From: Microbacterium phyllosphaerae
Lineage (GTDB): Bacteria; Actinomycetota; Actinomycetes; Actinomycetales; Microbacteriaceae
NCBI RefSeq assembly: GCF_017876435.1
Contig: NZ_JAGIOA010000001.1
Coordinates: 1 to 64,000 of the forward strand
Reading direction: 5' to 3'
Length of the DNA: 64,000 nt
The notes below the pieces were generated by a model. The model ran no database searches and was not told where the DNA came from. It worked only from the letters and a program-made list of their open reading frames with translations. Positions within the stretch are counted from its first letter, which is position 1, and each line of letters starts with the position of its first letter. The position numbers and the translations under genes are program-made. Below, one piece after another: positions 8,123-38,012 of the stretch.

Positions 8123-8181
8123 TTCGAATCGCTCACTTTGCAGCTTCGGGGCGGCTGATGCTGCAAAGTGCGCGATTCGAA
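8123..8181 (+). repeat. 59-bp intergenic palindrome, copy A1
   Basis: Two 21-bp arms (8123-8143 and 8161-8181) flank a 17-nt loop. The right arm contains CTGCAAAGTGCGCGATTCG and is identical in all four copies of this family. The left arm, TTCGAATCGCTCACTTTGC and onward, differs by one pairing mismatch. It lies between the stop of the oxidoreductase gene and the ddaH ribosome-binding site. No transposase or gene is associated here. Confidence 0.85.
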
Positions 8182-8222
8182 CGGGACTGGGGGTCGAACG
8201 GGGCTGGGGGCGAACGGGACTC

Positions 8223-8242
8223 GGGTCATTCACGCGATTCGA
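8223..8242 (+). repeat. single arm of the B-type palindrome, overlapping a gene end
   Basis: The 20 bases match the right arm of the 58-bp palindrome at 47756-47813 (GGGTCATTCACGCGATTCGA). On the opposite strand they supply the last codons (Glu-Ser-Arg-Glu, stop) of the oxidoreductase gene. Only one arm is present, so no hairpin forms from it alone. Confidence 0.7.
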
Positions 8243-9278
8243 GGGCGGCACGCACGACGACCTTGCCGACCGTGTGCCCTGCCTCGAGGTGCGCGAGCGC
8301 AGCGGATGCCTGATCGAAGCCGTACTCGTGCTCGATCACAGAGGTGATGCGACCCTCGGCCGTGAGCTCCAGAAGCTTCGCGAGGATTTCGGGGCGGGGC
8401 GTCGCCGCGAGCGGGCGGATGCGCCGACTCGACCCGACTGACAGGATGGCCGCCTTCAGCATCCGCGGGATGGGCCCCAGCACGTGCCCGCCGTCTCCCG
8501 TCACGAGCACGACCGAACCACCCGGCGCGACCAGTCGCTGCAGCTCCCGCAGGCCGATGCCGCCGGCGATGTCGATCACCGCGTCGAAGTGCCCCGCGGG
8601 CAGGGCCGACAGCGGCGAGCGGCGGTGATCGAGCGTGCGCACCGCGCCGAGGTGCTCGACGAGCCGCGCGTTGCGCTCCCCGCACGTCGCCCAGACCTCG
8701 GCCCCGCGCAGCGCGGCGAGCTGCACCGCGAACGTTCCGACTCCTCCGGACGCACCGATCACGAGCACCCGAGGCACCGCGTGCGCAGATCGTCGTCGGT
8801 CGGCGCGGAGTTCGGAGTGGATGCCGATGCCCGCGCGGTCGAGCGCCTGCCAGGCCGTACCCGCGGACACCGGCAGCGTGGCCGCGGTCACGGAGGACAC
8901 GTCGGGCGGGATCGGCACGAGTCGCGCGGCCGGGATCACGACGTGCGAGGCGAGGCCGCCGCCGCCGACGAGCTCGCCGACGACGCGCTCTCCGAGTTCG
9001 GCGCCGATCGCGTTCTCGCCCACGGCCACGACGGTGCCGGCGACCTCCATGCCCCGCACCGGATACTTGGGTCGCGTCAGGCCGAAGACCGGGCGCACGA
9101 GCAGCGGGTCACCGAGCATCAGTCGAACGTCTCCCGCGCTGAGAGCGGTCGCCTCGACCCGCAGCACGACCTCGCCCCGGCGCGGCACCGGCATCGGGAC
9201 GTGCTCGAGCCGGAACCCGTCGGCCGGGCCGTACGTCTCCCGCACCCAGGCGGGCATCATGTCGGTCATCTCAGGCAT
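8226..9278 (-). CDS. medium-chain NAD(P)-dependent alcohol dehydrogenase / quinone oxidoreductase family
   Basis: A 350-residue MDR-superfamily enzyme. The N-terminal GroES-like domain (about 20-130) starts [20 protein letters not shown]. The Rossmann domain has [18 protein letters not shown] (about residues 170-190). The zinc-ligand cysteine cluster of classical alcohol dehydrogenases is not seen, so it is more like quinone oxidoreductases that reduce activated double bonds with NADPH. The ATG overlaps the end of the upstream XRE regulator gene by 8 bp, making it the third gene of that operon. The final codons derive from a dispersed repeat arm. The substrate cannot be inferred. Confidence 0.82.
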
Positions 9279-9501
9279 CCTTCATCGAAGGTTCCGGGTA
9301 CTGGAACAGGTCGTCGAGCCCGACGCCGAAGGCGCGGGCGATCTGGAACGCGAGCTCGAGCGACGGGGAGTACTTCTCCTGCTCGATCGCGATGAGCGTC
9401 TGCCGGGTCACGCCGATGCTGCGCGCGAGCTCGGCCTGCGTGAGCCCCGCCTCTTCGCGGTGGGCGCGGATGCGGTTGGAGACGAGCGTCGGCTTGACCA
9501 T
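9271..9501 (-). CDS. small XRE-family transcriptional regulator
   Basis: A 76-residue protein made almost entirely of one helix-turn-helix (residues 8-62: [20 protein letters not shown] followed by [20 protein letters not shown]). This is the compact YozG/Xre type that commonly sits beside a small membrane protein. The ATG overlaps the stop of the membrane-protein gene by one base (TGATG). It probably represses its own operon through the paired operators at 9948-10009. Binding to those sites is inferred from symmetry and position. Confidence 0.88.
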
Positions 9502-9935
9502 CAGACGAGCCCCCGCCGGTAGGCGACGACGCGCGCGACGCTGCCGACGACGGCCGACACGGCGAAGCCCGCGAACATCGTGTTGGCGATCCAGAAGACA
9601 TCGGCCCCGACGGCGCACAGGGCGATCACGCCGAGCCCGGCGATCACGACGAAGGCCTGCTCGACGCGGGCGCCCATGCGGCTGATGTCGCGGTCGCGGA
9701 CGTCGGACCTGCCGACACCGTCGGGATCCTTCGCGCCGGCGATGATCCCCCAGACGATGCTGATCACGATCGTGGCCACGATGCCGGCACCGATCGTCCA
9801 CAGCATCGGCGGGAGCCAGTCGACCTCGGCCACCGCCCTGCCGGCAGCCTGCTGCAGCACGATGATGACGTACGCCGAGATCACGACGGCGCTGACGATC
9901 AGACCCGACCAGGCGTTGCGCTCCTCGTAGACCAT
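9501..9935 (-). CDS. four-helix membrane protein of the XRE-linked type
   Basis: A 144-residue protein with four predicted membrane helices near residues 10-30, 42-64, 92-110 and 116-136, separated by a charged cytoplasmic loop ([18 protein letters not shown]). Such proteins are often co-transcribed with a tiny XRE regulator; their biochemical role is unknown. Translation starts at ATG 9935 after GGAGGG. The promoter and operators lie directly upstream. It is the first gene of a three-gene operon with the regulator and the oxidoreductase. Confidence 0.82.
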
Positions 9936-9947
9936 GATGCCCTCCGA

Positions 9948-10009
9948 TGTAAAAGATTCTTGACACGAGAGTACGCCCGTGGCATCCGCCGTGTCAAGAA
10001 TTCTTTACA
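9948..10009 (-). promoter_or_regulatory. promoter with two palindromic operators for the XRE operon
   Basis: Two near-identical 18-bp palindromes, TGTAAAAGATTCTTGACA (9948-9965) and TGTCAAGAATTCTTTACA (9992-10009), lie 44 bp apart in inverted orientation. On the minus strand the upstream copy contains TTGACA (9997-9992), which pairs with TACTCT (9973-9968) over 18 nt. One operator thus covers the -35 box and the other lies just downstream of the -10 box, the arrangement expected for autorepression. Confidence 0.7.
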
Positions 10010-10041
10010 CGCTCGGTGGTGGCGGGGTCGCGTCGGCAGCG

Positions 10042-10125
10042 GTGGCCAAAAAAGCATCCGAATCGCGCGATTGCGATGCGCTTTTGACCACGCACCCGAG
10101 CTCACGTGCGCTTTTGACCACGCAC
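10042..10125 (+). repeat. D-type intergenic palindrome with a repeated arm
   Basis: An imperfect palindrome at 10042-10091 pairs GTGGCCAAAAAAGCATCCG with GATGCGCTTTTGACCAC. The segment GCGCTTTTGACCACGCAC is then repeated directly at 10108-10125. The sequence resembles the GCACTTTTGACCCCGCAC arms at 40547-40602. The gap 10010-10286 has no supportable gene. Confidence 0.7.
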
Positions 10126-10154
10126 TGGGAGATGGGTGTGGGAAGGGCAGCGGC

Positions 10155-10260
10155 GGGATGCCGGATGCGGCGGGATGCCGGATGCTGGATGCCGGATGCC
10201 GGATGCCGGATGCCGGATGCCGGATGCCGGATGCGGCGGGATGCTGGCGGATGCCGGGAC
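10155..10260 (+). repeat. GGATGCC heptamer tandem repeat
   Basis: About a dozen copies of GGATGCC or close variants (GGATGCGGC, GGATGCT), including six uninterrupted perfect 7-bp units near 10190-10235. The array lies just beyond the 3' end of the proline catabolism gene. Copy number is likely to vary between strains by slippage. Confidence 0.85.
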
Positions 10261-10286
10261 GGGACGGAAGGCGGGCCGAGGCGGCG

Positions 10287-13200
10287 TCAGATGGCCGAGG
10301 CGCTCCAGTCGTCGGGATTGCCGTAGCGATGCGCGGTGATCGCGATGGCCTGCTCGTGCACGAAGGGCAGCAGTTCGATGCGTCCGGCCGAGGTGACCTC
10401 GCCGTCGTACACCGCGAGGTCGGGGTCGCCGTCGACTGCCACGGCCAGCGCGCGATGCAGCGCCGCGACCGCGTCGCGCGATCCCACGAGCCGCACCCGA
10501 TTCGGCCGGGGCTCGGCGCCGAGCGATGCGAGCGCATCTCCGGAACCGGCCTCTCGCCGCCGCATCCGGTCGATCCACTCCTCGTCGCTCTCCATGAACA
10601 CGACCGCCCCGAGGGCTCCGAGCGCGCGACGCACCTCAGGCGGCAGCCCGACAGGGGTCGACAGCACGAACGCGGAACCGGCGCGGACCGCGGCGACCAC
10701 GACGCGCAGCAGCTCCTGCCACCCGGCATCCGCGGTCGCCCTGATCGCGACCGGCACGGGGCGGTAGCGGAAGAGGTTGCGCTCGATGCCGAGGCGCGAG
10801 ACGTCGCGCACCTGGCCGAACTCGCGGTCCCAGGCGAGGGCATCCGACAGCGCCGAGCGACGCAGCCATTCGAACGCCTCGTAGTCGAGGGACGGCTGGG
10901 CCGACTCGATCAGCTCGGTGATGCGCGAGTCCAGGCCCCGCAGGTGCAGCGTGCTCGACACGGGGCCCGATCCGCTCGAGCGCCAGGTTCCGAGTCCGAC
11001 GAGGTAGTTGGGGCCGCCGGCCTTGGTGCCCGGTCCGACCGATGAGCGCTTCCAGCCGCCGAACGGCTGACGCTGCACGATCGCGCCCGTGATGCCGCGG
11101 TTCACATAGAGGTTGCCCGCCTGCACCCGGTCGAGCCACAGCGAGAGCTCGGCGGGATCCTGCGTGTGCAGCCCCGCGGTCAGCCCGTAGGCCACGGCGT
11201 TCTGCATCTCGATCGCCCGCTCGAGGGTCGGCGCATGCATGATGCCGAGCACCGGCCCGAAGAACTCCTCGGTGTGGAAGCGCGACCCCGGCTGCACACC
11301 GACGCGGATGCCGGGGCGCCACAGCCGTCCGCTCTCGTCGTCGACCGAGACCGCGGGTTCGATGAGCCACTGCTCCTCGCCCTCGAGCTCGGTGAGCGCC
11401 CAGGCGAGCTTGCCCTGCGGCCTCTCGATCACGGGCCCGACCTCGGCGCGCGGATCGGTGGGCCAGCCGACATGCAGCGACCGCGTGGCATCCGCCAGCT
11501 GCCGGGCGAACCGCTTGGAGCGACCGACCGGCCCGACGAGGATCGCCAAGGACGCGGCCGAGCACTTCTGCCCCGCGTGCCCGAAGGCACTGCGCACCAG
11601 GTCCGAGACCGCGAGATCGAGGTCGGCCGAGGGCGTGATGATCATCGCGTTCTTGCCGCTGGTCTCGGCGAGCAGCGGCAGGTCGGGCCGCCACGAGCGG
11701 AACAGCGCGGCGGTCTCCCAGGAGCCGGTGAGGATGACACGGTCGACCGACTCGTGCGCGATCAGCGTGCGGCCGAGGTCGCCCTCCTCGATGTCGACGA
11801 GCGCGAGCACATCGCGAGGCACGCCCACCTCCCAGAGCGTCTCGGCGATCACGGCCGCACAGCGTCGGGACTGCGGGGCGGGCTTGAACACGACACCGGA
11901 TCCTGCGGCGAGCGCGGCGAGCACTCCGCCGGCGGGGATCGCGAGGGGGAAGTTCCACGGAGGGGTGACGACGGTCACGCGCGCAGGTTCGAAGGCGGCG
12001 CCGGCGACGGCATCCAGCTCTCGCGCCTTTGCGGCGTAGTAGCGGGCGAAGTCGACGGCTTCGCTGACCTCGATGTCGGCCTCGGCGAAGACCTTGCCCG
12101 TCTCGGCGGCGGCGACCTCGATGAGCTCCCCGCGCCGGGCCTCGAGCGCGGCAGCGGCGCGGAGCAGGACGTCGGCACGTTCCGCGGCGGGACGGGCTCC
12201 CCAGTGGGCTCCGGCATCCCGCACCCCGGCGATCGTGCTCTCGAGCACGGCGTCGTCGTCGATGCGGGCGGCCTCGATGGTCGCCGCACCCAGAGTCGAG
12301 TCGGCGATCCGCGCGTGGATCTCGCGCGCCCACTCGCGGTTGACCGGAAGCGACGGGTCGCTGTCTGCGGTGTTCTCGAACCCGGGGGCACCCCCCGTGC
12401 CCTCGTCGAGCTCGCGTGGGGCGTAGACAGCAGTCTCGAGGAACGGCTCGCCCGAGTCATCCGACCCCCTCGAGATGCCGAGGACGGCCTTGGTCAAGCC
12501 CTCTTCCGGCGCCACGGCCGCGGGTGCCGGGCGCACCGACTCGTGCACCGGGGCGAGCCGATCCTGGGTGCGCAGCGCCCCCACCTGCAGGGTCGGCGAG
12601 GTCGAGCGGTCGAGCGCGTCGAGGAACCTGTCCTGCTCGCGCACGAAGAGCGACTCGTCATCGCCGAGCCGGAACGCGGCGGAGAGGAAGTTGTCGTTCG
12701 AGGCGTTCTCCTCGAGCCGGCGCACGAGATAGCTGATCGCCACGTCGAACTCGTCGGGCTTCACGACCGGCACGTAGAGCAGCACCTCGCCGACCTCGCG
12801 CGAGACGGCCTGCACCTGCCCTTGGGCCATGCCGAGCAGCATCTCGAACTCGATCGGCGGCTGCCCGGCCGCCGTGCCGTCAGCCGCGAGACCACGCAGG
12901 CCCCGCTCCCCCGCGAGCAGCCACGCGTACGCGATGCCGAACAGGTTGTGCCCGGCGATGCCCAGGTGAACCGCGTCGATGTTCTCGGCGCGCAGCGCCC
13001 AGTCGAGGCAGCGCAGGTAGTTCGCATCGGTGTCGAGCTTGGTGTCGTAGGTCGCCTGCTCCCACCCGTGCATCTGCGACTCGACCCGCTCCATGGCGAG
13101 GTTGGCGCCCTTGACGAGCCGCACCTTGATCGGCGCGCCACCCCGGTCGACGCGGTCGCGCGCCCACGCGGTGAGCTGCTGCAGGGCGGGCAGGGCGTCG

Positions 13201-13982
13201 GGCAGATAGGCCTGCAGCACGATGCCCGCTTCGATGCCCTCCAGGCGCGGGTCCTCGAGGACGCGGGTGAACACCGCGATCGTCAGGTCGAGGTCGCGAT
13301 ACTCCTCCATGTCGAGGTTGATGAACGTGCGGTCGGACGCGGCCGTCAGATACAGCGGCAGCAGGCGCTCGACCACCGCGTCGACGACCTCGTCGAACGC
13401 CCACATCGAGATGTGGCTGATGATCGCCGACACCTTCACCGAGACGTAATCGACGTCGGGGCGACGGATCAGATCGTGGATGCCGTCGAGCCGCCGCTGC
13501 GCCTCGGCTTCGCCGAGCACCGCCTCACCGAGCAGGTTGAGGTTCAGACGCGCACCGGACTCACGGATCCTCTCGATCGCCGGACCCAGCTTGGCCGGAC
13601 GGGCGTCGACGACCAGGTGGCCGACCATGTCGCGCAGAACCCTGCGCGCGATGGGCACCACGGGGCTGGGCAGGATCTGTGCGACGCCGCCACCGAGCCG
13701 CACGGCGGAACGCAGGTACCAGGGCAGGAAGTCGGGCACGATCGGCGCGATGCGGTGCAGCTGCGATGCCGCGGCCCCCAGGCTCTCTGGGCGCATGACC
13801 CCATCGACGAACCCCAGCGTGAACGGCAGCCCGTTGGCATCCTGCAGCACTCCGGCGAGGCGCTCCGCCGCAGGGTCGACGTCGGCGGCCGCAGCCTCGA
13901 CCACCCAGCGGCGAGCGAGTTCCACCGCACGGTCCGCGAGAGAGGCGGATTCGGGATCCGTGGAGGGCGTCGGGTCGGCCAT
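10287..13982 (-). CDS. putA: bifunctional proline dehydrogenase / glutamate-semialdehyde dehydrogenase
   Basis: A 1,231-residue protein that oxidises proline to glutamate in two steps. The proline dehydrogenase domain (about 80-450) has VRLVKGANLAMERVESQM and AGHNLFGIAYAW. The aldehyde dehydrogenase domain (about 530-1000) has TPPWNFPLAIPAGG, the LLAETSGKNA glutamate motif and the GHAGQKCSAAS cysteine near residue 806. Some 230 residues follow as a C-terminal extension. No ribbon-helix-helix DNA-binding domain precedes the catalytic part, so it is unlikely to be a self-repressor. Translation begins at ATG 13982, 6 nt from a TAGGCT box, so the mRNA is probably leaderless. The product is glutamate, which links it to the nearby rocD pathway. 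Confidence 0.9.
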   Translation of the reverse strand: MADPTPSTDPESASLADRAVELARRWVVEAAAADVDPAAERLAGVLQDANGLPFTLGFVDGVMRPESLGAAASQLHRIAPIVPDFLPWYLRSAVRLGGGVAQILPSPVVPIARRVLRDMVGHLVVDARPAKLGPAIERIRESGARLNLNLLGEAVLGEAEAQRRLDGIHDLIRRPDVDYVSVKVSAIISHISMWAFDEVVDAVVERLLPLYLTAASDRTFINLDMEEYRDLDLTIAVFTRVLEDPRLEGIEAGIVLQAYLPDALPALQQLTAWARDRVDRGGAPIKVRLVKGANLAMERVESQMHGWEQATYDTKLDTDANYLRCLDWALRAENIDAVHLGIAGHNLFGIAYAWLLAGERGLRGLAADGTAAGQPPIEFEMLLGMAQGQVQAVSREVGEVLLYVPVVKPDEFDVAISYLVRRLEENASNDNFLSAAFRLGDDESLFVREQDRFLDALDRSTSPTLQVGALRTQDRLAPVHESVRPAPAAVAPEEGLTKAVLGISRGSDDSGEPFLETAVYAPRELDEGTGGAPGFENTADSDPSLPVNREWAREIHARIADSTLGAATIEAARIDDDAVLESTIAGVRDAGAHWGARPAAERADVLLRAAAALEARRGELIEVAAAETGKVFAEADIEVSEAVDFARYYAAKARELDAVAGAAFEPARVTVVTPPWNFPLAIPAGGVLAALAAGSGVVFKPAPQSRRCAAVIAETLWEVGVPRDVLALVDIEEGDLGRTLIAHESVDRVILTGSWETAALFRSWRPDLPLLAETSGKNAMIITPSADLDLAVSDLVRSAFGHAGQKCSAASLAILVGPVGRSKRFARQLADATRSLHVGWPTDPRAEVGPVIERPQGKLAWALTELEGEEQWLIEPAVSVDDESGRLWRPGIRVGVQPGSRFHTEEFFGPVLGIMHAPTLERAIEMQNAVAYGLTAGLHTQDPAELSLWLDRVQAGNLYVNRGITGAIVQRQPFGGWKRSSVGPGTKAGGPNYLVGLGTWRSSGSGPVSSTLHLRGLDSRITELIESAQPSLDYEAFEWLRRSALSDALAWDREFGQVRDVSRLGIERNLFRYRPVPVAIRATADAGWQELLRVVVAAVRAGSAFVLSTPVGLPPEVRRALGALGAVVFMESDEEWIDRMRRREAGSGDALASLGAEPRPNRVRLVGSRDAVAALHRALAVAVDGDPDLAVYDGEVTSAGRIELLPFVHEQAIAITAHRYGNPDDWSASAI

Positions 13983-13988
13983 GACCTC

Positions 13989-13994
13989 AGCCTA
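13989..13994 (-). promoter_or_regulatory. -10 box of a leaderless putA transcript
   Basis: TAGGCT on the minus strand is followed by exactly 6 nt and then the ATG of putA. In actinobacteria TANNNT at this distance typically gives transcripts starting at or next to the start codon. Confidence 0.55.
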
Positions 13995-14061
13995 AGACTG
14001 CGGTGAGCGCGCGGCCCTGAGCGACGGGCACTCAGTCGCCTCGGGCGCATCGGCAGCTCCG

Positions 14062-14238
14062 GTCGCACTTCGTGCCGTCGCATCGGGCGCATCGGCGGCT
14101 CCCGTCGCACTTCGTGCCGTCGAACGCGCGAGCGGACGGCACGAAGTGCGACCGGAGCCGGGCCTCCGCCGAGCCACACGGCACGAAGTGCGACCGCAAC
14201 CGAACCCACGCGAGCCACACGGCACGAAGTGCGACCGC
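14062..14238 (+). repeat. C-type repeat array (five 19-bp units)
   Basis: Five units of CGGCACGAAGTGCGACCG or its complement. Two are inverted (14062-14080, 14104-14122) and three direct (14137-14155, 14179-14197, 14220-14238). Units 4 and 5 are embedded in a longer 41-bp direct repeat beginning GAGCCACACGGCACG. Inverted and direct units can fold into long hairpins. The gap 13983-14254 contains no gene that I can support. Confidence 0.85.
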
Positions 14239-14254
14239 GACGCGGGCGAGCGAC

Positions 14255-15079
14255 TCAGCGCGCGGCGATCATCTCGTCGTAGCCCTCGCGGAAGGTCGGA
14301 TACTCGAGCGCACCCAGGAACTCCCGCAGCAGATGCCCGTCCAGAACCGTGCCGCCGCCGACCTCGGGGTCGAGGTGCGGAGGCGGTTCGACGCCGAGCC
14401 TCCTCGCGAGGTGCGAGACCACGTCGCCGAGCAGCACGGGCTCGGTGTCGACGGCATGGATCAGCGGGGGCGCCGAGTCCGCGCGCAGCATCGCCTCGAG
14501 CAGACGCACGAGGTCGGTCTCATGGATGCGGTTGGTGCGGCGCGAGTGATCGACGGCCGCCCCCTCGGTGACCCGACGGATCAGGAAGTCGCGGCCAGGC
14601 CCGTAGATGCCGGCCGGTCGCACGATCCGAGCGCCGAACAGCTCCATCGCCAGCTGCTCACCCTCGAGCAGGTCGCCGCCTCGCTCGCTCGACACCCGGG
14701 GCGCGTCGCGCTCGGTCAACGGCGTCTCGCCGGGGCGGCCTTCGAACACCCTGGTCGACGACACGAACACGACGCGCGACGGCATCGCCGGGAGAGCATC
14801 CGCGAGTCCGCGCAGCGCCGGCGGATAGATCGAGTCGCCCTCGGTGCTCGGCGGCAGCGTGATGACGACGGAGTCGTACGCCGGCAGCTCCCGGTCGAGC
14901 GGATGCCTCAGATCGGCCTCGATCGTCGGGAAGGGCAGGTCGCTCGCATGGCGCCGCATGGCCGTGACCTCCGCGCCCTGCGCGATCAGGCGCTCACCCA
15001 GGCGCGCGCCGAGCTTGCCGCATCCGACCAGCAGCACCGACCCAGGTGCGCGAGTCTCGAGTCCCCACGGATCGGTCAT
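14255..15079 (-). CDS. NAD(P)-binding epimerase/dehydratase (YeeZ-like)
   Basis: A 274-residue extended SDR-type protein with an N-terminal GSVLLVGCGKLGARLGERL dinucleotide-binding motif, VVFVSSTRVFEG in the middle, and a GIYGPGRDFL segment as in atypical epimerases. The YxxxK catalytic pair of classical SDRs is not obvious, so activity is uncertain. ATG 15079 is preferred; it is one base past the stop of the thioesterase gene, so the two are coupled. An upstream GTG in frame is possible. It could act on a sugar nucleotide or a metabolite repair substrate. Confidence 0.75.
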   Translation of the reverse strand: MTDPWGLETRAPGSVLLVGCGKLGARLGERLIAQGAEVTAMRRHASDLPFPTIEADLRHPLDRELPAYDSVVITLPPSTEGDSIYPPALRGLADALPAMPSRVVFVSSTRVFEGRPGETPLTERDAPRVSSERGGDLLEGEQLAMELFGARIVRPAGIYGPGRDFLIRRVTEGAAVDHSRRTNRIHETDLVRLLEAMLRADSAPPLIHAVDTEPVLLGDVVSHLARRLGVEPPPHLDPEVGGGTVLDGHLLREFLGALEYPTFREGYDEMIAAR

Positions 15080-15080
15080 C

Positions 15081-15641
15081 TCAGTTCCACACACTCGGTG
15101 CCGAGCTGCGCACGGGAGGCAGCGCGGATGCCGCGGCCCAGTCGTGCACCCACGAATCGATCTCGGGCACGCCCTCGGGCTTGCCGACCGCGGCGAACAG
15201 CTCTTCGTTGCTGACCGTGCCTCCGGTGCGACGCAGCATACGCGAGCGCACGATCGCCCGTGCGTAGATCTCGCCGCCGACGACGGCTCGGTGCTCGAGG
15301 AACACGGCCTTGTCGTCGTGCCCGATGAAGCGGGACTGCACCTCGAACCGCTGCCACAGCTGCAGGGACTTGCGGAAGGTCACGGTCTCGCTCGACACGA
15401 CGGCGTACCAGCCTCGCTCGGTCATCGCGTCGAACAGCCCCGTGCGGATCAGCAGATCCCAGCGGCCGAGGTCGAACAGCGACAGGTAGCGACCGTTGTT
15501 CATGTGGCGCAGGATGTCGATGTCCGTGGGGAGGGTCGTCAGTCTGATGCTGCTGACGGAGGCGGCATCGAGGGTCTTGCCCCGACGCACGCGACGACGG
15601 GCCGAGAGGATCACGAGGAGAGTGCGCCAGATCACGTTCAC
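15081..15641 (-). CDS. hotdog-fold acyl-CoA thioesterase family protein
   Basis: A 186-residue protein of the 4HBT/THEM6-like type. The family signature TDIDILRHMNNGRYLSLFDL appears near residues 38-58, followed by the VTFRKSLQLWQRFEV strand and HDDKAVFLEHRAVVGG. The first 20 residues are basic and hydrophobic, possibly a membrane-associating segment. It starts the operon with the NAD-binding gene downstream. The family hydrolyses acyl-CoA thioesters; the chain length is unknown. Confidence 0.8.
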   Translation of the reverse strand: MNVIWRTLLVILSARRRVRRGKTLDAASVSSIRLTTLPTDIDILRHMNNGRYLSLFDLGRWDLLIRTGLFDAMTERGWYAVVSSETVTFRKSLQLWQRFEVQSRFIGHDDKAVFLEHRAVVGGEIYARAIVRSRMLRRTGGTVSNEELFAAVGKPEGVPEIDSWVHDWAAASALPPVRSSAPSVWN

Positions 15642-15759
15642 GAGGATCGATCGTAGCCATCGATGAACGGATCACGAACATCGTTGTGCGAACCCTCCAG
15701 CACTGCACCGGGGGTTTGTGAGGGCATCCGCTCGATTTCCCGTTCGCGGAGGCCGCGCG

Positions 15760-15765
15760 TAGAGT
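15760..15765 (+). promoter_or_regulatory. -10 box of a leaderless GNAT transcript
   Basis: TAGAGT lies exactly 6 nt before ATG 15772, and no Shine-Dalgarno sequence is present. This supports both a leaderless transcript and the chosen start codon. Confidence 0.55.
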
Positions 15766-15771
15766 CACGAT

Positions 15772-16278: not shown

Positions 16279-16318
16279 GCCTCGGCGCGGTGAACCTCGT
16301 GTTCACCAGTCCGCATGA

Positions 16319-16349
16319 AACGGCCCCCTGCCATCGGCAGGGGGCCGTT
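16319..16349. terminator. bidirectional terminator
   Basis: A 14-bp perfect stem (16319-16332 with 16336-16349) and 3-nt loop in the gap between two convergent genes, with a TTCCT tail on the plus side. It can end both the acetyltransferase transcript and the ETF-cytochrome transcript. Confidence 0.8.
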
Positions 16350-26199: not shown

Positions 26200-26258
26200 T
26201 TCGGGTCGCTTACTTTGCAGTTTCCGGGGTTCGACTTCTGCAAAGTGCGCGATTCGAA
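26200..26258 (+). repeat. 59-bp intergenic palindrome, copy A2
   Basis: The right arm (26238-26258) is identical to those of copies A1, A3 and A4. The left arm begins TTCGGGTCGCTTACTTTGC, with a few changes from perfect pairing. The loop is 17 nt. This copy lies between divergent genes (mmsA and the ABC ATPase gene), so a terminator role alone cannot explain the family. Confidence 0.85.
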
Positions 26259-30420: not shown

Positions 30421-31382
30421 GCACCGACCATCCGCTCACGCTCCAGAGCACGATCCTGGGCCGCACCGGCCTCGCGGTCTCGCCGATCTGCATCGGCACC
30501 GCGGCGTGGGGAGTGTCCTCCCCCGTGCACGGCCTGACGGTGCCCGAGGAGGATGCAGTGCAGCTGACGCTGGCCGCGTTCGAGAGCCCCGTCACCTTCA
30601 TCGACACCTCGAACAACTACGGCGACGGCGAGAGCGAGCGGCGGATCGGTCTGGCGGTTCGTCGAGCGGGAGGCGTGCCCGAGGGTTTCGTGATCCAGAC
30701 GAAACTCGACCGCGATCCCGAGACCGACTCGTTCGACCCCGACCGCATGCGTCGCTCGCTCGACGAGAGCCTCGAGCGGCTCGGCATCGACCGGGTGCCG
30801 ATCCTGCACCTGCACGACCCCGAGCACATCGGCTTCGACGCGGCGATGGCACCGGGCGGCCCCGTCGAGGTGCTGCAGTCACTGCGCGATCAGGGATACG
30901 CCGACTTCATCGGCATCTCGGGAGGGCCGGCGCGGATGCTGACGCGATTCGTCGAGACGGACGTCTTCGACGTGCTCATCACGCACAACCGGGCCACACT
31001 GGTCGACCGCACCGCGGATGCTCTGCTCGACGCCGCCGCCGCGGCGGACATCGGCGTGGTGAATGCGGCGATCTACGGAGGCGGGATCCTCGCGAGCTGG
31101 CCCCGCACCTCTGACCGCTATCACTACGCCCCCGCGTCAGCCGAGATGCTCGCAGCGATCGACGCGATGGGCGCGGCGTGCGAACGCCACGGAGTGCCCC
31201 TGATCGTGGCGGCGCTGCAGAGCTCGCTGCGCGATCCGCGCATCCACTCCACCGTGTGCGGGCTGGTCACGCCGCAGCAGCTCGACGAGACTGTGCGCAT
31301 GGCTGAGACCGAGATTCCCGACGCCCTCTGGGAGGAGCTCGACGCGCTCCGCCCCTCACGGGACTCGTGGATCGATGACTGA
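30417..31382 (+). CDS. aldo/keto reductase, aldose dehydrogenase-like
   Basis: A 321-residue TIM-barrel oxidoreductase. The catalytic DTSNNYGDGESERRIG contains Asp and Tyr. VIQTKLDRD holds the Lys and ILHLHDPEHIGFD the His. This GESERRIG form resembles D-threo-aldose 1-dehydrogenase and L-fucose dehydrogenase, which oxidise free sugars to lactones. It overlaps the permease gene by 4 bp, so it likely acts on the imported sugar. The exact substrate is not known. Confidence 0.85.
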   Translation: MSTDHPLTLQSTILGRTGLAVSPICIGTAAWGVSSPVHGLTVPEEDAVQLTLAAFESPVTFIDTSNNYGDGESERRIGLAVRRAGGVPEGFVIQTKLDRDPETDSFDPDRMRRSLDESLERLGIDRVPILHLHDPEHIGFDAAMAPGGPVEVLQSLRDQGYADFIGISGGPARMLTRFVETDVFDVLITHNRATLVDRTADALLDAAAAADIGVVNAAIYGGGILASWPRTSDRYHYAPASAEMLAAIDAMGAACERHGVPLIVAALQSSLRDPRIHSTVCGLVTPQQLDETVRMAETEIPDALWEELDALRPSRDSWIDD

Positions 31383-32514
31383 CCGACCCGCCCTGCTCGT
31401 CACCGGCGTCGGCGCGCACGCCGACCCGTGGCACGGACTCGCAGCGACCAGCGAGGCGCTCGCGGACGTGCTCGCCGAGCGGATGCCGGTGCGCCGCCTC
31501 GACACCGACGACGTGGCCGACGGAGCGACTCTGACGGATGCCGCACTGCTCGTCGTGAACATCAGCGGCGATCTGGGCGCGGAGGCCGCTGCGGCGAGAG
31601 CCGTGCTCGATCCTCTGCTCGACGCCGTGGCCTCGGGCATCCCGCTGCTCGCGGTGCACTCCTCGGCTCTCGCCTTCCGTGACGACCCCCGCTGGGCCGA
31701 GCTGCTGGGTGGGCGATGGGTGCCGGGCGTGACGATGCATCCGCAGATCGGCTGGAGCGTGGTGCAGCCGGCCGCTCCACTCCCCCCGTTCCGGGTGTAC
31801 GACGAGCGGTACTCGCACCTCGAGGTCGGCGACGGTTCCGCGGTGCGGGCGATCCACACCGACGACGGCATCACCCACGCTCTCGCCTGGTCACGCCACG
31901 GCGCTGACGGACACGGCGGCGTCGCGTACTCGGCACTCGGCCACGGCGTCGAGGCCTATCGGGCCGACGGCACGCGCGCGCTGCTGCATGCGCTGATCGA
32001 CGAACTGGTCGGTACCGAACATGCGCTGGACCCGGCCCCGTCGGCGATCCCGCCGGTACCGGCGTTCGAGGCCGCCGCGCTCGACTACGAACTCATCGCG
32101 ATCGCACCGCGCGGCGGCGATGTGGGAGTGGCCGGCTTCGCCGATCACTTCGACGACGGCGAGCTGCTGGCATCCGGATACCTCCTGCTCGAGCGCCTGC
32201 CCGCCGGCGGTGCCGCCCTGCACAGCCACGGCCGCGAGGTCGGTCGACTCGCGTCCGTCGACGGCGGTCTGCGTGTCGACCTGCCCGGAGCCGCGATCGA
32301 CGGACGGATGCTGCGTTCCGCCGACGCGGGGATCGCGCTGGTCGCCGAACACGGGCGATGGCAGGGCGGCGACGGCGGATCTGCCATCCTGCTCGGAGAC
32401 GACTGGCGCGTCGCCGTGGTGCACGGCCCGGCGCGCGTCAAGCTCGATAATCGCGTCCGACTGCTCGACGACCTGCGGGCTCTGTCTCGGACGCAGGAGG
32501 AGCGGCATGCCTGA
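31375..32514 (+). CDS. ThuA-like domain protein with an extra C-terminal domain
   Basis: A 379-residue protein. Residues 5-215 resemble the ThuA/class I amidotransferase-like fold linked to trehalose and other sugar utilisation (ALLVTGVGAHADPWHGLAAT, LLVVNISGDLG, PLLAVHSSALAF, VTMHPQIGW, ITHALAWSRHG). Residues 220-379 form a second, unrecognised domain (PALDYELIAI through WRVAVVHGPARVKLDNRVRL). ThuA proteins are usually near 220-250 residues. It overlaps the aldo/keto reductase by 8 bp and the LacI gene by 8 bp. The reaction is unknown. Confidence 0.7.
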   Translation: MTDRPALLVTGVGAHADPWHGLAATSEALADVLAERMPVRRLDTDDVADGATLTDAALLVVNISGDLGAEAAAARAVLDPLLDAVASGIPLLAVHSSALAFRDDPRWAELLGGRWVPGVTMHPQIGWSVVQPAAPLPPFRVYDERYSHLEVGDGSAVRAIHTDDGITHALAWSRHGADGHGGVAYSALGHGVEAYRADGTRALLHALIDELVGTEHALDPAPSAIPPVPAFEAAALDYELIAIAPRGGDVGVAGFADHFDDGELLASGYLLLERLPAGGAALHSHGREVGRLASVDGGLRVDLPGAAIDGRMLRSADAGIALVAEHGRWQGGDGGSAILLGDDWRVAVVHGPARVKLDNRVRLLDDLRALSRTQEERHA

Positions 32515-33508
32515 CATCGGCCTCCGAGACGTCGCCGAGCGCGCCGGGGTCTCGATCGGAACCGTCTCGAACGCGCTGAATCGACCGGAGCTCGTCTCTG
32601 AGTCTGCGGCCGCCCGCGTCGCCGAGGCCGTCGACGAGCTCGGCTACGTGCCCAACATCGCCGCCCGACAGCTCAAGGCCGGCCGCAGCGACGCGATCGG
32701 GTTCTCGGTGATCAACATCACCAACCCGTTCTTCGCCGACCTCGCGTTCGGCGCCGAGGAGCAGGCGCTGACCGCCGGCTACTCCGTGCTCGTGGGCAAC
32801 GGCTTCGACTCGGCCGAGCGCGAGTCCCGCTACCTCGACCTGTTCGAGCGGCAGCGCGTCGACGGCGTGCTCATCGCCCCGGTCGAGTACCACGAGGAGT
32901 ACCTGCAGCGCTTCCGCCGCCGAGGGGTGCCCGTCGTCCTCGTCGACCAGCGGCATCCGCGCGGCGAGTTCTCCTCCGTGTCGGTCGACAACAGGCTCGG
33001 CGGACGCATCGCGGCTCAGGCGCTCCTCGACGGCGGATGCCGGCACCTGGCGTTCATCGGCGGACCGAAGTCGCGCGAGCAGATGAACGAGCGTCTCACC
33101 GGACTGCACGAGGTGGCGGATGCCGCCGGTGTGCGCACCACGCTCATCGAGACGACCACGCTGAACACTGGCCTCGGCCGTGAGATCGGCGAGCAGATCG
33201 CCGAGCTGCCCGCAGCGGACCGCCCCGACGGGATCTTCGCCGGTAACGACCACCTCGCCCTCGGCCTGCTGCAGGGGCTCGTCGGGCGGGGCCTGCGCGT
33301 GCCCGAGGACATCTCGCTGGTCGGCTACGACGACATCGAGTTCGCCGGCGCCGCGGTCGTGCCGTTGACCTCGGTGCGCCAACCCGCCCGAGAGATGGGC
33401 GCGAGGGCCGTCGAGCTGCTCATGCACCACCTCGCAGGCTCCGACGATCCGATCGAGGCGCGCTTCGTGCCCGAGCTCGTGATTCGGGCCTCGACCCGCT
33501 CCCACTGA
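32507..33508 (+). CDS. LacI-family transcriptional regulator
   Basis: A 333-residue repressor. The N-terminal helix-turn-helix (IGLRDVAERAGVSIGTVSNA, hinge helix AARQLKAGRSDAIG) precedes a sugar-binding core (FSVINITNPFFADLAFGAEE through DISLVGYDDIEFAGAAVVPL). It overlaps the ThuA-like gene by 8 bp and follows AGGAGG. It is the likely repressor for the AAACGTTT operators at 26312-26339 upstream of the operon. The GH42 and second aldo/keto reductase genes follow after 46 bp. Confidence 0.9.
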   Translation: MPDIGLRDVAERAGVSIGTVSNALNRPELVSESAAARVAEAVDELGYVPNIAARQLKAGRSDAIGFSVINITNPFFADLAFGAEEQALTAGYSVLVGNGFDSAERESRYLDLFERQRVDGVLIAPVEYHEEYLQRFRRRGVPVVLVDQRHPRGEFSSVSVDNRLGGRIAAQALLDGGCRHLAFIGGPKSREQMNERLTGLHEVADAAGVRTTLIETTTLNTGLGREIGEQIAELPAADRPDGIFAGNDHLALGLLQGLVGRGLRVPEDISLVGYDDIEFAGAAVVPLTSVRQPAREMGARAVELLMHHLAGSDDPIEARFVPELVIRASTRSH

Positions 33509-33554
33509 CCTTCCCCACCCATCCGGTCCTCGCGACCACCGACCCAGGAGATCC

Positions 33555-35648
33555 ATGCATTACGGCGCCGACTACAACCCCGAGCAGTGGCCACGAGAGG
33601 TGTGGCCCGAAGACGTGCGGCTCATGCGCGAAGCGGGTGTGACGCTCGTGAGCCTCGGGATCTTCTCGTGGTCGCGGATCCAGCCCGCCGAGGGCGAGTT
33701 CGACTGGGAGTGGCTCGACGAGATCATCGGGCTGCTGCACGAGGGCGGCATCCAGGTCGACCTCGCCACCGCCACCGCATCCCCGCCACCGTGGGCCTCC
33801 GCCGCGTATCCCGAGATGCTGCCGCAGGATGCCGACGGATCGACCTTCTGGCCGGGCAGCCGCCAGGCGTACGCGCCCGCCTCGCCCGTCTACCGTCGCC
33901 TCGCGTCGGAGCTCGTCACCGCCCTCGCGGAGCGCTACGCGCAGCATCCGGCCGTCGTGCTCTGGCACGTCAACAACGAGTACGGATGCCACCTGCACTA
34001 CGACTACTCCGACGCGGCGCGCGACGCGTTCCGCGTGTGGCTCGAGCGCAAGTACGCGACGATCGACGCCCTCAACCACGCCTGGGGCACGGACTTCTGG
34101 TCGCAGCGCTACACCGCGTTCGACCAGATCGTGCCGCCGCGCAAGGCGCCGTACAGCATCAACCCCACCAGCGTGCTCGACTTCAAGCGGTTCACCTCCG
34201 ACACCCTGCTCGAGCTGTACGTGATGGAGCGCGACATCATCCGCGCCTCCGGGGCGACGCAGCCGATCACCACGAACTTCATGGGCGCGTTCCCGCCGGC
34301 CGACTACTGGAAGTGGGCGGACGAGGTCGACGTGATCTGCGACGACAACTACCCCGACCCCAACGACCCCGAGTCGTTCCGCGGCGCGGCGTTCGCCCGT
34401 GAGCTCATGCGCGGGCTCAAGCCGGGCGTGCCGTGGATCCTCACCGAGCAGTCGACGAACGCGCTGAACTGGCGCCCGACCAACGCGCCGAAGGCGCCGG
34501 GTCAGATGGCGGCGATCAGCGCCCAGGCGGTCGGGCGCGGTGCCGACGGCATCATGTTCTTCCAGTGGCGCCAGTCCCGCCGCGGCAGCGAGAAGTTCCA
34601 CTCGGCGATGGTGCCGCAGGCCGGGCTCGACACACGTACGTGGCGGGAGGTCGTCGACCTCGGCGGCCGGCTCGCACAGCTGCCCGAGCTGCCGGACGTG
34701 ACCTCGGGAGCGAAGATCGCGCTCGTGTTCGACTGGGAGAACTGGTGGGCCATCGACGGCCGCGACCACCCGATCGTGCTCGACTATCTCACGCTCTCGC
34801 ACCGCTGGCATGCGGCTCTGCACCGTCAGAACCTCGCCGTCGACATCGTGAACACGACCAGTGACCTGAGCGCGTACTCGCTCGTCGTCGCACCTCAGCA
34901 GTACCTGCTGAGCGACGAGGGCGCGGCCAACCTCTCGGCCTACGTGCACCGAGGTGGCAACCTGTTCGTCTCGGCGTTCAGCGACGTCGTCGACCAGGAC
35001 GACGCCTTCCGTGACGGCGGGTTCATCGTCTCGCTGCGCGACGCGCTCGGCGTCGCCCTCGAGGACTTCGGTGCGCTCGTTCCGCCCGAGTCCGTGCGCT
35101 CGGCCGACTCGGCCGGCGAGGTCGCCCTGCACGCGGTGCCCGACGGGCCCGGTCAGTCGGAGGCCCCGCTCGACGGGCCCGCCGGCCGGATCGTCGGCCA
35201 GTACTTCGCCGAGGAGCTGCTGGTGCAGGATGCCGAGGTGCTCGGCCGCTTCACCGAGGGCCGCACCGAGGGCCGGGCGGCATTCACCCGCAAGGACTTC
35301 GGCGCAGGTCACGGCTACTATCTCGCGACGATCCCCGACGACGCGGGCATGACCGCGGTGCTCGGCTGGCTCGCGGCCGAGGCCGGAGTGACGGCCGAGA
35401 TCGAAGGACTGCCCGCGCACGTCGAGATCGCCCGCCGCGGCGGCATCCTCACCGTCATCAACCACAGCGCCGAGCCGTTCGCGGTCGAGGTGGCCGGTAC
35501 CGATGTGCTCACCGGCTCGACGGACGCGCGCCGCGAGCTCGGGGCGTTCGGATGGGCGTTCGTGGACACGAGCGACTCGCCGTCGTCGGTTTCGCAGGAC
35601 TCGCGGGACTCGCAGGATTCGCAGAACTCTCAGAAGGAGAACAGCTGA
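33555..35648 (+). CDS. GH42 beta-galactosidase
   Basis: A 697-residue glycoside hydrolase of family 42. The N-terminal MHYGADYNPEQWPREVWPED and IFSWSRIQPAEGEFDWEWLD are typical. Glu142 in HVNNEYG is the acid/base, and Glu298 in PWILTEQSTNAL the nucleophile. The C-terminal 40 residues are rich in Asp/Gln/Ser and look disordered. No signal peptide is visible, so it acts on imported galactosides. It follows the LacI gene and is coupled (1-bp overlap) to the next aldo/keto reductase. Arabinosidase activity occurs in some GH42 enzymes. Confidence 0.93.
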   Translation: MHYGADYNPEQWPREVWPEDVRLMREAGVTLVSLGIFSWSRIQPAEGEFDWEWLDEIIGLLHEGGIQVDLATATASPPPWASAAYPEMLPQDADGSTFWPGSRQAYAPASPVYRRLASELVTALAERYAQHPAVVLWHVNNEYGCHLHYDYSDAARDAFRVWLERKYATIDALNHAWGTDFWSQRYTAFDQIVPPRKAPYSINPTSVLDFKRFTSDTLLELYVMERDIIRASGATQPITTNFMGAFPPADYWKWADEVDVICDDNYPDPNDPESFRGAAFARELMRGLKPGVPWILTEQSTNALNWRPTNAPKAPGQMAAISAQAVGRGADGIMFFQWRQSRRGSEKFHSAMVPQAGLDTRTWREVVDLGGRLAQLPELPDVTSGAKIALVFDWENWWAIDGRDHPIVLDYLTLSHRWHAALHRQNLAVDIVNTTSDLSAYSLVVAPQQYLLSDEGAANLSAYVHRGGNLFVSAFSDVVDQDDAFRDGGFIVSLRDALGVALEDFGALVPPESVRSADSAGEVALHAVPDGPGQSEAPLDGPAGRIVGQYFAEELLVQDAEVLGRFTEGRTEGRAAFTRKDFGAGHGYYLATIPDDAGMTAVLGWLAAEAGVTAEIEGLPAHVEIARRGGILTVINHSAEPFAVEVAGTDVLTGSTDARRELGAFGWAFVDTSDSPSSVSQDSRDSQDSQNSQKENS

Positions 35649-36613
35649 TGCAGTACACACGTCTCGGACGAGCGGGCGCCCGGGTGAGCCGTCTGGCCCT
35701 CGGCACCATGAACTTCGGTCCCGTGATCGACGAGGAGGCCTCGCGCGCCATCCTGGACCGCGCGGTCGACGCCGGCATCGACTTCATCGACACCGCCGAC
35801 GTCTACGGCGGCGGCCGGTGGGGCGACCACCCCGGGCAGTCGGAAGAGATCCTCGGTCGCTGGATGAAGGACCGCGGCAACCGCGACGACCTGATCGTCG
35901 CCACGAAGGTGTTCGGCGCGATGGGGCCTCGGTCGAACGATCGAGGGCTGTCGGCGGTGCACATCCGCGCCTCGGTCGACGCGTCGCTGCGACGACTCGG
36001 CACCGACCACCTCGACCTGTACCAGATGCACCACATCGACCGCGATGTGCCGCTCGACGAGACGCTCAGCGCCTTCGTGACGCTGCGCGAGCAGGGCAAG
36101 ATCACCTACCTCGGCAGCTCGAACTTCGCCGGGTGGCACCTCGCGCGCGTGCACGAGATCGCCGCGGCATCCGGCTATCCGGCCCCGGTGACCGAGCAGT
36201 CGCTGTACAACCTCACCGAGCGCACGGTCGAGCTCGAGGTCGTGCCCGCCGCGGAGCAGTACGGCATGGGGCTGCTGCCCTGGTCGCCGCTCGCCAGCGG
36301 ACAGCTCGGCGGGGTGCTGCAGAAGACCGACCGCTCGCGGTCGAGCCTCGACGCCCTCGGAGACCGGCGCCCCGCGATCGAGCGCTACGAGGAGTTCTGC
36401 GCCGAGCTCGGCATCCGCCCCGGTGTCGTCGCGATCGCCTGGCTGCTGCACCAGCCGACCGTGACCGCCCCGGTGATCGGTCCGCGCACGATCGACCAGC
36501 TCGACTCTGCCGTCGAGGCGCTCGACGTGACGCTCGATGCCGACACGCTCGCCGAACTCGACCGCATCTGGCCCGGGCCCGGCGGCACCGCCCCCGAGGC
36601 GTACGCCTGGTGA
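35648..36613 (+). CDS. aldo/keto reductase
   Basis: A 321-residue aldo/keto reductase. It starts MQYTRLGRAGARVSRLALGT and contains FIDTADVYGGGRWGDHPGQS (Asp, Tyr), ATKVFG (Lys) and YQMHHIDRDVPLDE (His). LGSSNFAGW and the WSPLASGQL cofactor region complete the family pattern. It is closer to YghZ/GrdA-type reductases than to the first paralogue at 30417. ATG follows AGAAGGAGAAC. A rho-independent hairpin lies about 155 nt downstream. Confidence 0.9.
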   Translation: MQYTRLGRAGARVSRLALGTMNFGPVIDEEASRAILDRAVDAGIDFIDTADVYGGGRWGDHPGQSEEILGRWMKDRGNRDDLIVATKVFGAMGPRSNDRGLSAVHIRASVDASLRRLGTDHLDLYQMHHIDRDVPLDETLSAFVTLREQGKITYLGSSNFAGWHLARVHEIAAASGYPAPVTEQSLYNLTERTVELEVVPAAEQYGMGLLPWSPLASGQLGGVLQKTDRSRSSLDALGDRRPAIERYEEFCAELGIRPGVVAIAWLLHQPTVTAPVIGPRTIDQLDSAVEALDVTLDADTLAELDRIWPGPGGTAPEAYAW

Positions 36614-36768
36614 CCGTCCCGAACCGGTGTTCGCCGGTCGTTCACCGTTCGTACACGTCGACCGACTACAACTACAGGTGCGCGGACACAGACTCAGACC
36701 GGATCGGGTAGTCACGTCATCCGCGCACCACGGTGAGCGTCTGCTCCCGTTGCGGTGACACACCGCGA

Positions 36769-36802
36769 AAGACCCCCGCCGAATCGGGTCGGCGGGGGTC
36801 TT
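36769..36802 (+). terminator. terminator after the GH42 operon
   Basis: A 14-bp stem (36769-36782 with 36789-36802), 6-nt loop and a short T-rich tail. It would end the transcript that begins at the ABC promoter or at an internal promoter. The rest of 36614-36967 holds only the 59-bp palindrome described next. Confidence 0.8.
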
Positions 36803-36837
36803 CTCTGCCTTGCGGTCGTCCCGGCCCTGCTTTCGCT

Positions 36838-36896
36838 TTCGAATCGCGCACTTGGCAGATCTCGGGTCGTTGGTTCTGCAAAGTGCGCGATTCGAA
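36838..36896 (+). repeat. 59-bp intergenic palindrome, copy A3 (left flank of DUF559 gene)
   Basis: The left arm begins TTCGAATCGCGCACTTGGC and pairs with the invariant right arm (36876-36896), leaving a 17-nt loop. It lies 72 nt upstream of the DUF559-type start and in the same orientation as the copy that follows that gene. Confidence 0.88.
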
Positions 36897-36967
36897 GCCA
36901 GTGGGAACCGGCCAGGGCTGTGGACAACCGCATCCGTCGAGCGCCGGGGCATGCCACGGTGTGGACC

Positions 36968-37948
36968 ATGACGCCACGCGAGAACCTTCCGGACGAGATC
37001 CGCGGCATCGGCTTCTCGGTGCACATCGCACGACTGCACGGTGTGAGCCGCAACCGACTGCGCAGCGTCGACCTCGAAGCCCCTTTCTTCGGCGTGCGTG
37101 CACCCGCCGGAACAGTGCCGACGTTCGACGACATCGTGGATCCCCATGAACGGCAGCGCCGCGCGCGGGCCCGCCGCGCACACGTCTACGCCCCGCGACT
37201 GCACAACGGCCATTTCTTCAGCCATCAGACGGCCGCGTCGATCTGGGGTGCGCCGTTGCCTCTCGAATTCACCGACGACGACCAGATCGCCGCCTACAGC
37301 GACCTTCATCTGCACGTCAGCGCCGCGGGGCACACGCCCTTCCCCCGCGCGAGCGGTATCGTCGGTCACCGGACACTGTCGAGCTTGACGGAGATCACAG
37401 TGCACGACGGCTTGCGAGTCACCTCGCCCGCCGCGACCTGGGCGTCGCTCGGCGGACTTCCGCTCTTCGACGTCGTCGCCATCGGCGATCACATGTGCCG
37501 CGTGTGGCGAAGCGGGAGGGGCAGACCGGCCCCCGGACGCGCACCCCTCTCGACTCGGGCAGATCTGCGGACGATGCTGGAAGCAGGGCGACGACGCGGA
37601 GCGGCACGGCTCAGGGATGCACTCGAGCTCGTTCGCGAGGACTCCTGGTCGCCGCGTGAGACGCGAGTGCGCTGCATCCTGCTCGCCGGCGGGCTGCCGG
37701 AACCGGAGCTCAACGTGGACATCCACGACGAGCGCGGGCGCTTCCTCGGATGCGTCGACATGGTCTACCGCGAGGCTCGTGTCGTCATCGAGTATCTCGG
37801 CATGCTGCATGGGGAGCAGTGGGCGGCGGACGTGGAGAGACTCGAACGCCTCCGCGCCGCCGGGTGGGTCGTCATCGAGGTCACCTCACCTCTGCTGCGT
37901 CGGCCCGAGGAGCTGGTGCGGCGCGTATCGGCAGCTCTCGGCGCCTAA
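36968..37948 (+). CDS. AbiEi/DUF559-type protein with an endonuclease-like C-terminus
   Basis: A 326-residue protein of a family common in Microbacterium. The N-terminal part (IRGIGFSVHIARLHGVSRNR, HNGHFFSHQTAASIWGAPLP) resembles the AbiEi-like winged-helix/antitoxin region. The C-terminal part (SPRETRVRCILLAGGLPEPE, GCVDMVYREARVVIEYLGML) has the E...D...E spacing of DUF559/Vsr-like restriction-fold domains. No cognate AbiEii toxin gene is adjacent. It is directly bracketed by two 59-bp palindromes in the same orientation. Function is unproven; nuclease activity is inferred from fold. Confidence 0.7.
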   Translation: MTPRENLPDEIRGIGFSVHIARLHGVSRNRLRSVDLEAPFFGVRAPAGTVPTFDDIVDPHERQRRARARRAHVYAPRLHNGHFFSHQTAASIWGAPLPLEFTDDDQIAAYSDLHLHVSAAGHTPFPRASGIVGHRTLSSLTEITVHDGLRVTSPAATWASLGGLPLFDVVAIGDHMCRVWRSGRGRPAPGRAPLSTRADLRTMLEAGRRRGAARLRDALELVREDSWSPRETRVRCILLAGGLPEPELNVDIHDERGRFLGCVDMVYREARVVIEYLGMLHGEQWAADVERLERLRAAGWVVIEVTSPLLRRPEELVRRVSAALGA

Positions 37949-37953
37949 CCCCC

Positions 37954-38012
37954 TTCGAATCGCCTACTTTGCAGTTTTCCAGACGGCCTTTCTGCAAAGT
38001 GCGCGATTCGAA
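37954..38012 (+). repeat. 59-bp intergenic palindrome, copy A4 (right flank of DUF559 gene)
   Basis: It begins 6 nt after the DUF559 stop. The left arm starts TTCGAATCGCCTACTTTGC, and the right arm (37992-38012) is invariant. It lies between convergent genes, so it may also act as a terminator. Confidence 0.88.

Follow-up and report, generated by a model that had tools for sequence, protein, structure and literature searches.

Fixed-length palindromes paired with a DUF559 nuclease-like gene in Microbacterium phyllosphaerae and related bacteria

Bacterial intergenic palindromes are common, and many of them have no known cause. What holds such an element at a constant length, and does it belong with any gene? 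Both questions are raised by positions 1–64000 (here, the window) of a single 3,728,650-base contig of Microbacterium phyllosphaerae (genome label G000), in which an original prediction, made from the letters alone, recognized four 59-bp palindromes, each made of two 21-bp arms around a 17-nt loop. The four were confirmed at the positions listed below; the right arm, CTGCAAAGTGCGCGATTCGAA, is the same in all of them, the left arms are off by 1, 4, 1 and 2 bases, and no relation is apparent between the loops. Two of the palindromes bracket a gene encoding a DUF559 protein, an arrangement that the original prediction overlooked. The answer favoured here, with a probability of roughly 0.6, is that this nuclease-like protein and its cognate palindromes constitute a two-part system that resembles REPIN/RAYT but employs an unrelated enzyme.

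8123..8181, + strand: dispersed 59-bp palindrome in a same-strand gap; missing, together with more sequence, at the orthologous site in genomes G302 and G305
26200..26258, + strand: dispersed 59-bp palindrome, lying between divergent MMSDH and ABC transporter genes; common to G302, missing in G305
36838..36896, + strand: 59-bp palindrome that brackets the DUF559 gene on its upstream side; 62 bp separate it from the GTG taken as start
36959..37948, + strand: DUF559 gene; 329 aa from GTG 36959 or 326 aa from ATG 36968, TAA at 37946
37954..38012, + strand: 59-bp palindrome, downstream bracket of the DUF559 gene; starts 5 bp past the stop codon
47756..47814, + strand: fifth 59-bp palindrome, with 27-bp arms, in a convergent gap; cleanly missing in G304, present in G302 with two neighbouring compensated changes

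The window palindromes are far beyond chance: the arm, at up to three mismatches, was matched seven times, compared with a mean of 0.02 and a maximum of 1 in 100 dinucleotide shuffles. Folded as single-stranded DNA, the four copies yielded z-scores of -9.0, -4.8, -8.1 and -6.5. The fifth copy shares its outer 11 bp with the other four and differs from them in the inner arms. When the search for the arm (up to three mismatches) was combined across the whole of G000 with a search for the outer ends that permitted lengths of 53–61 bp, 18 full copies were obtained, all exactly 59 bp long. The ten outermost bases on either side hardly change among them, whereas the inner arms are variable.

The bracketed gene lies between genes for an aldo/keto reductase (AKR) and a thiolase. 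Its product matches Pfam PF04480 (DUF559) just above the cut-off, and its nearest named DUF559 relatives are from Microbacterium. The AlphaFold2 model (predicted local distance difference test score, pLDDT, 92.8) places a predicted Vsr/EDxHD-like nuclease fold in the C-terminal part, according to fold matches to the model, and the nuclease residues are invariant. The N-terminal two thirds give a weak AbiEi/Rv2827c-like signal; the VIA-align rows for this part are few, and families beyond them may match as well. NCBIfam offered no family for the protein, with one weak match among the 29 proteins scanned, and PHROG no match at E<=0.1. A phage or plasmid origin was considered and rejected, the protein having no match among 50,697 phage records and three, all distant, among 72,556 plasmid records.

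The bracketing of DUF559 genes is a general feature. Among 30 loci of the genus picked by protein similarity, a palindrome was observed on both sides in 22, on one side or unclearly in seven and on neither in one (L073, genome G124). The bracket palindromes vary from genome to genome, and the two at one gene agree. A broader set comprised 80 organism-named loci, the best 80 of 87 by protein similarity alone, with species partly repeated and with Humibacter, Okibacterium, Mycetocola, Leucobacter, Plantibacter and Flexivirga represented. Here a palindrome of at least 46 bp with a score of at least 12 was present upstream in 61 of 77 loci, downstream in 63 of 79, on both sides in 50 of 76 and on at least one side in 71 of the 76 testable loci (one side only in 21, neither in 5). 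Dinucleotide shuffles produced such palindromes in 2 of 385 upstream and 1 of 395 downstream sequences (3 of 780 in all), and displaced windows in 6 of 307, although these are mostly coding and thus a weaker control than the flanks of other genes. The bracket arms at one gene show a mean match of 0.90, compared with 0.56 for different loci with proteins less than 70% identical (50 loci), and 44 of the 50 two-sided loci exceed the 95th percentile for this match. Further support comes from 20 genus stretches fetched by protein match, 18 of which carry a palindrome on at least one side; the two without are G209, where the gene match is partial only, and G099. Two genomes, G228 and G042, each possess a pair of subfamily genes that differ in palindrome type. 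Bracketing was also predicted for three distant homologues on Arthrobacter megaplasmids (28–33% identity), of which two are bracketed on both sides and one has a downstream palindrome only. That gene and palindrome are paired is almost certain.

The two partners also change together. In 47 loci remaining after near-duplicates were removed, the more two proteins differ, the more their palindromes do (Mantel r 0.53, with p at its floor, 5e-4); shared ancestry inflates such p-values, while the contrast between domains remains. With the C-terminal part held fixed, the partial correlation was 0.45 for residues 1–60 and 0.41 for residues 61–220, whereas the C-terminal part, with 61–220 held fixed, displayed no link to the palindrome (-0.004, p 0.55). 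Since palindrome divergence tracks the N-terminal two thirds and not the nuclease, specificity may be placed in that part of the protein. At thiolase-adjacent loci, 7 of 8 carry TTCGAATCGC palindromes (two of the seven seen downstream only) and the eighth, L109 of M. ihumii, has TTCAAGTAACGC on both sides; the simplest reading of these sequences is that the palindrome type changed in place. The palindrome is quite likely the DNA target of the protein.

The same evidence could be read as a regulon, in which the protein is a DNA-binding regulator, the palindromes are operators at its own and other genes, and the nuclease is secondary. AbiEi antitoxins act as repressors of their own operon and are binders of inverted repeats, and the AbiEi-like signal, the copy upstream of the gene and the tracking of the N-terminal two thirds are all in keeping with such a role. 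Regulation is nevertheless an unlikely explanation, as a downstream copy is present in 63 of 79 loci and often lies within 15 bp of the stop codon, 24 of 35 flanking gene 3' ends fall 6–27 bp from a dispersed copy (33 sampled copies, approximate gene calls), and the nuclease residues are invariant. Moreover, the inner arms show hairpin-like covariation, a property that an operator bound by a dimer could do without. By the same approximate gene caller, 29 of the 33 sampled copies lie between called genes, two inside them and two at an edge; the caller misplaced at least one window copy, that at 36838, which was called convergent and is truly in a same-strand gap.

Covariation and length were assessed across the genus, in which the pattern TTCGAATCGC-N24..54-GCGATTCGAA occurs in 48 of 295 genomes, at 1–34 copies where present. 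Among the matches listed nearly all are 59 bp, with 58 and 60 bp found twice each and 64 and 74 bp once. A gap-free alignment of 36 elements over 59 columns contains 82.9% pairing cells against 74.1 in shuffles, 127 cells that differ on both sides against 70.5, and a covariation score of 0.298 against 0.159 +/- 0.011, each above 500 of 500 shuffles. Two-sided changes of any kind affect 17 of 29 pairs, against 15.8 in shuffles, which is no excess, 118 of 500 shuffles having reached this value. Because kinship alone can lift sequences above shuffles without structure, the slid alignments matter too, and in these just 26–45% of cells pair. Two compensated changes, side by side, separate G302 from G000 at site 47756. 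The proposal that a constant length around a variable loop points to structural selection, or to an enzyme able to measure the element, fits well with a 59-bp length in almost every listed match of the genus, covarying inner arms and a bracketed nuclease-like gene.

Hairpin structure might instead be selected in RNA, for transcription termination or mRNA stability, and both the position just past stop codons and the stable predicted folds would agree with this. However, G.T and A.C mismatches are near-equal in gene-oriented copies (33 vs 35 downstream, 39 vs 31 upstream), where RNA would favour G.U, and therefore DNA is the more plausible selected form. No T-run follows the hairpin in the flanks of the four window copies on either strand, copies also lie upstream of genes, and the link to the protein is left unexplained, so that an RNA function is very improbable. 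The earlier statement that termination alone does not explain the elements is supported. The Rfam gathering scan of the window returned rRNA only, from an operon (5S, 23S, 16S) at the contig start (window 1–5257, minus strand).

At single sites, individual palindromes have been either gained or lost. The 47756 element is missing in G304 flush with both 59-bp ends, and no target duplication was detected at this empty site; where the 26200 element is missing in G305, the site is 58 bp shorter. Such clean presence and absence of 59 bp between species would be expected of miniature inverted-repeat transposable elements (MITEs) of an ordinary DDE insertion sequence that chanced to land beside the gene. 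The absence of a target duplication speaks against them, and the same arrangement with different palindromes at orthologues and distant homologues cannot be chance landing; of all the explanations considered, this one is the least credible. The attC sites known as '59-base elements' were dropped on sight of the sequence, with no attC motif search made. At the site orthologous to 47756, genome G005 carries another palindrome, CTTCGACAAGCTCAGG...CCTGTCGAAG, of about 50 bp in place of the 59-bp element; a literature search on the TTCGACAAGCTCAG palindrome of this genome returned nothing.

The whole palindrome-gene-palindrome unit may also be missing, as in G001 between the same neighbours. Separately, G303 and G305 carry about 6–7.5 kb extra between the counterparts of window positions 36611 and 38044 (8963 and 7685 bases versus 1432 and 1420). 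Absence of the unit would be compatible with a homing cassette, whose nuclease cuts lone palindromes so that repair copies palindrome, gene and palindrome in, the lone copies being targets or leftovers. The likeness to EDxHD homing endonucleases points the same way, as does the variety of locations, the gene being seen beside AKR, MMSDH or thiolase genes in 13 of 80 loci but not in the other 67. Homing is still doubtful, and slightly more so than regulation, given that lone copies are much more numerous than genes, with loops that resemble neither bracket, that the brackets are whole palindromes and not halves of an interrupted target, and that phage and plasmid records are almost devoid of the protein.

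In the 12 genomes with TTCGAATCGC-type palindromes beside the gene (on both sides in ten, downstream only in G130 and G287), 1–34 copies were counted, with a median of 15; these counts include bracket copies, and the lowest (1, 2 and 3) may be brackets alone. In the other 283 genomes, any copies were found in 36, with a mean of 0.7. The TTCAWAGMGCGC type, defined from the brackets of five genomes and so found in those five by construction, was predicted to be rare outside them, and occurs in 1 of 290 others (G111), where the genome's own bracket is of a different type. Extra dispersed copies of it are present in G061, G075 and G265, and bracket copies only in G039 and G213; among the matches listed all are 59 bp, with 51–69 bp permitted.

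Several observations weigh against a two-part system of protein and cognate palindromes. One or both palindromes are missing at 26 of the 76 testable loci. In a scan of 119 genomes of the phylum, 37 of which have PF04480, 15 of 29 loci examined lacked a palindrome and a matching pair was present in 2 of 29, although loci were read at the longest frame in their centre, which for some was the wrong gene. Cognate genes were not found in the copy-rich genomes G083 (23 copies), G253 (26), G209 (22), G036 (12), G040 (10) and G230 (8) by a search that scored seven candidates per genome at E<=1e-10; G083, G253 and G036 do have subfamily genes, but with other palindromes. Finally, no loop is common to any two of 13 aligned G000 copies, and therefore nothing here proves recent copying. 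Whether the enzyme spreads palindromes is an evenly balanced proposition. In other families of the phylum, far outside the genus, DUF559 genes at loci L232 and L235 were seen with near-perfect palindromes on both sides (arms of about 22–25 bp at L232, a compensated 41-bp pair at L235).

The distribution of copies over the G000 chromosome bears on a further claim, that a common polarity of the invariant arm reflects replication direction. The shared polarity applies to the four window copies; genome-wide it breaks down, with six of nine exact arms on the plus strand and three on the minus strand, and polarity as a mark of replication direction is not supported. The copies are tied to replication by position instead of polarity. 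All 18 (from 8123 to 1402168, plus 3621842) lie within 832 kb of dnaA at 569,884, a span that makes up 45% of the chromosome (Kolmogorov-Smirnov p 1.9e-6; 9e-5 after thinning to 14 neighbourhoods), and the other 55% holds two lone 11-base half matches only, at 1,951,586 and 2,596,542. All five copies of G186 are within 823 kb of dnaA, and in G166 two of three are close, with one 1.49 Mb away.

Further pairs exist within G000. As was expected beforehand, a second gene (G000:C1:~3,633,924-3,634,874) is bracketed by palindromes of a 50-bp GGGGTCA...TGACCCC type, of which the window holds three exact copies and one degenerate copy. Aligned with the first protein over 320 columns, the second shows 33% identity (E 4e-31); it scores 18.1 bits for DUF559, below the Pfam cut-off of 20.6, and has no NCBIfam family. 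These copies, together with one palindrome of a third type, are as follows.

10042..10091, + strand: degenerate 50-bp member of the second family, GTGGCCA...TGACCAC, with a folding z of just -1.7
14099..14157, + strand: single 59-bp palindrome of a third type, CTCCCGTCGC...GCGACCGGAG, which brackets DUF559 genes in other Microbacterium
40389..40438, + strand: second family, 50-bp GGGGTCA...TGACCCC palindrome of the type around the second gene
40550..40599, + strand: second family, 50 bp
45685..45734, + strand: second family, 50 bp

Palindromes of the CGGGAGGAGAACTGC type bracket a third DUF559 gene of G000, at L191 (G000:C1:332700-336500); on either side of it they resemble inverted repeats that overlap.

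Among known systems, REPIN/RAYT is the nearest in arrangement. Two papers (PMC3116915, PMC8049555) describe inverted pairs of repetitive extragenic palindromes (REPs), variable in spacer and characteristic in length, and an enzyme gene that is mostly chromosomal. The Microbacterium system shares the inverted pairs, the variable spacer, the set length, the dispersed intergenic copies and the mostly chromosomal gene, as well as an enzyme gene flanked on both sides by palindromes of its own type. Nevertheless, the REP-associated Y1/HUH transposase (PF01797), raised as a candidate in the original prediction, was found in none of 27 genomes, 13 of them with at least ten palindromes, in a search whose controls were positive in 5 of 14; the nuclease-like DUF559 family stands in its place. 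No GTAG lies at the ends of or beside the four window copies. Because these two defining features fail, the system is not filed under REPIN/RAYT. It also differs in having 1–34 copies, not hundreds, in the genomes that carry them, and in G000 these are origin-proximal, whereas PMC3116915 describes a random distribution of REP doublets over extragenic space.

With respect to the protein, the closest known systems include the EDxHD homing endonuclease I-Bth0305I, which the modelled C-terminal fold may resemble. An enzyme of that kind would act as a dimer on a target of about 60 bp, to which the observed 59-bp dyad might correspond; in contrast, the present gene does not interrupt its own target, whole palindromes lying on both sides, and the Rfam gathering scan gave no intron in the window. 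Also among these systems are the Vsr mismatch endonuclease and, from Caulobacter, the DUF559 protein VsrA, yet the Vsr gene of G000 itself (TIGR00632, at 827 kb) has no palindrome in the 3.6-kb stretch scanned. Unlike in AbiE toxin-antitoxin loci, no AbiEii nucleotidyltransferase toxin adjoins the gene. CGTC-tagged REPs, according to PMC3733652, are palindromic dimers of Proteobacteria and four other phyla that 'apparently lack a dedicated transposase'; the dimers are a shared feature, while the CGTC tag and the 8–9-bp stems belong to the REPs. A non-Y1 palindrome enzyme would therefore fill a gap stated in that source.

Literature searches in PMC on DUF559 with palindromes, or with nuclease and Actinobacteria, gave nothing on the pairing, most subscription papers being outside their scope. 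Papers on DUF559 alone, including PMC12907096, and on AbiEi with endonuclease and inverted repeat concerned neither repeats nor the pairing, respectively, by title; REP with Actinobacteria and nuclease returned nothing, and broader searches nothing on the pairing among the matches listed.

In the mechanism proposed here, a dimer would read the outer fixed ~10 bp of each arm through the N-terminal two thirds, and this would fix the total length at 59 bp. The C-terminal Vsr/EDxHD-like nuclease might then act on the palindrome, as double-stranded DNA or as an extruded hairpin, and breakage and repair could occasionally copy or remove palindromes. These would persist as short non-autonomous repeats, while the gene would stay low-copy and mostly chromosomal.

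To our knowledge, the Y1 transposases that go with GTAG-type REPs are the dedicated palindrome enzymes on record. A Vsr/EDxHD-like nuclease coupled to its own palindromes would be a second, independent solution, and would give a role to DUF559 proteins of unknown function. More tentatively, with odds a little short of even, DUF559 proteins of this architecture may be the dedicated enzymes of a large unrecognized class of bacterial palindromic repeats, convergent with REPIN/RAYT, in which each gene has its own pair and a dimer measures their length and causes dispersed copies to arise and disappear. If so, the class would span Actinomycetota (Microbacteriaceae, Arthrobacter, Flexivirga and further families), one genome could hold several independent gene-palindrome pairs, and other REP-like families now without an enzyme may also belong to it. 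A nuclease coupled to its own palindromes would also supply a natural set of matched enzyme and target pairs with many specificities, and the persistence of short palindromes in compact genomes over long times would become testable.

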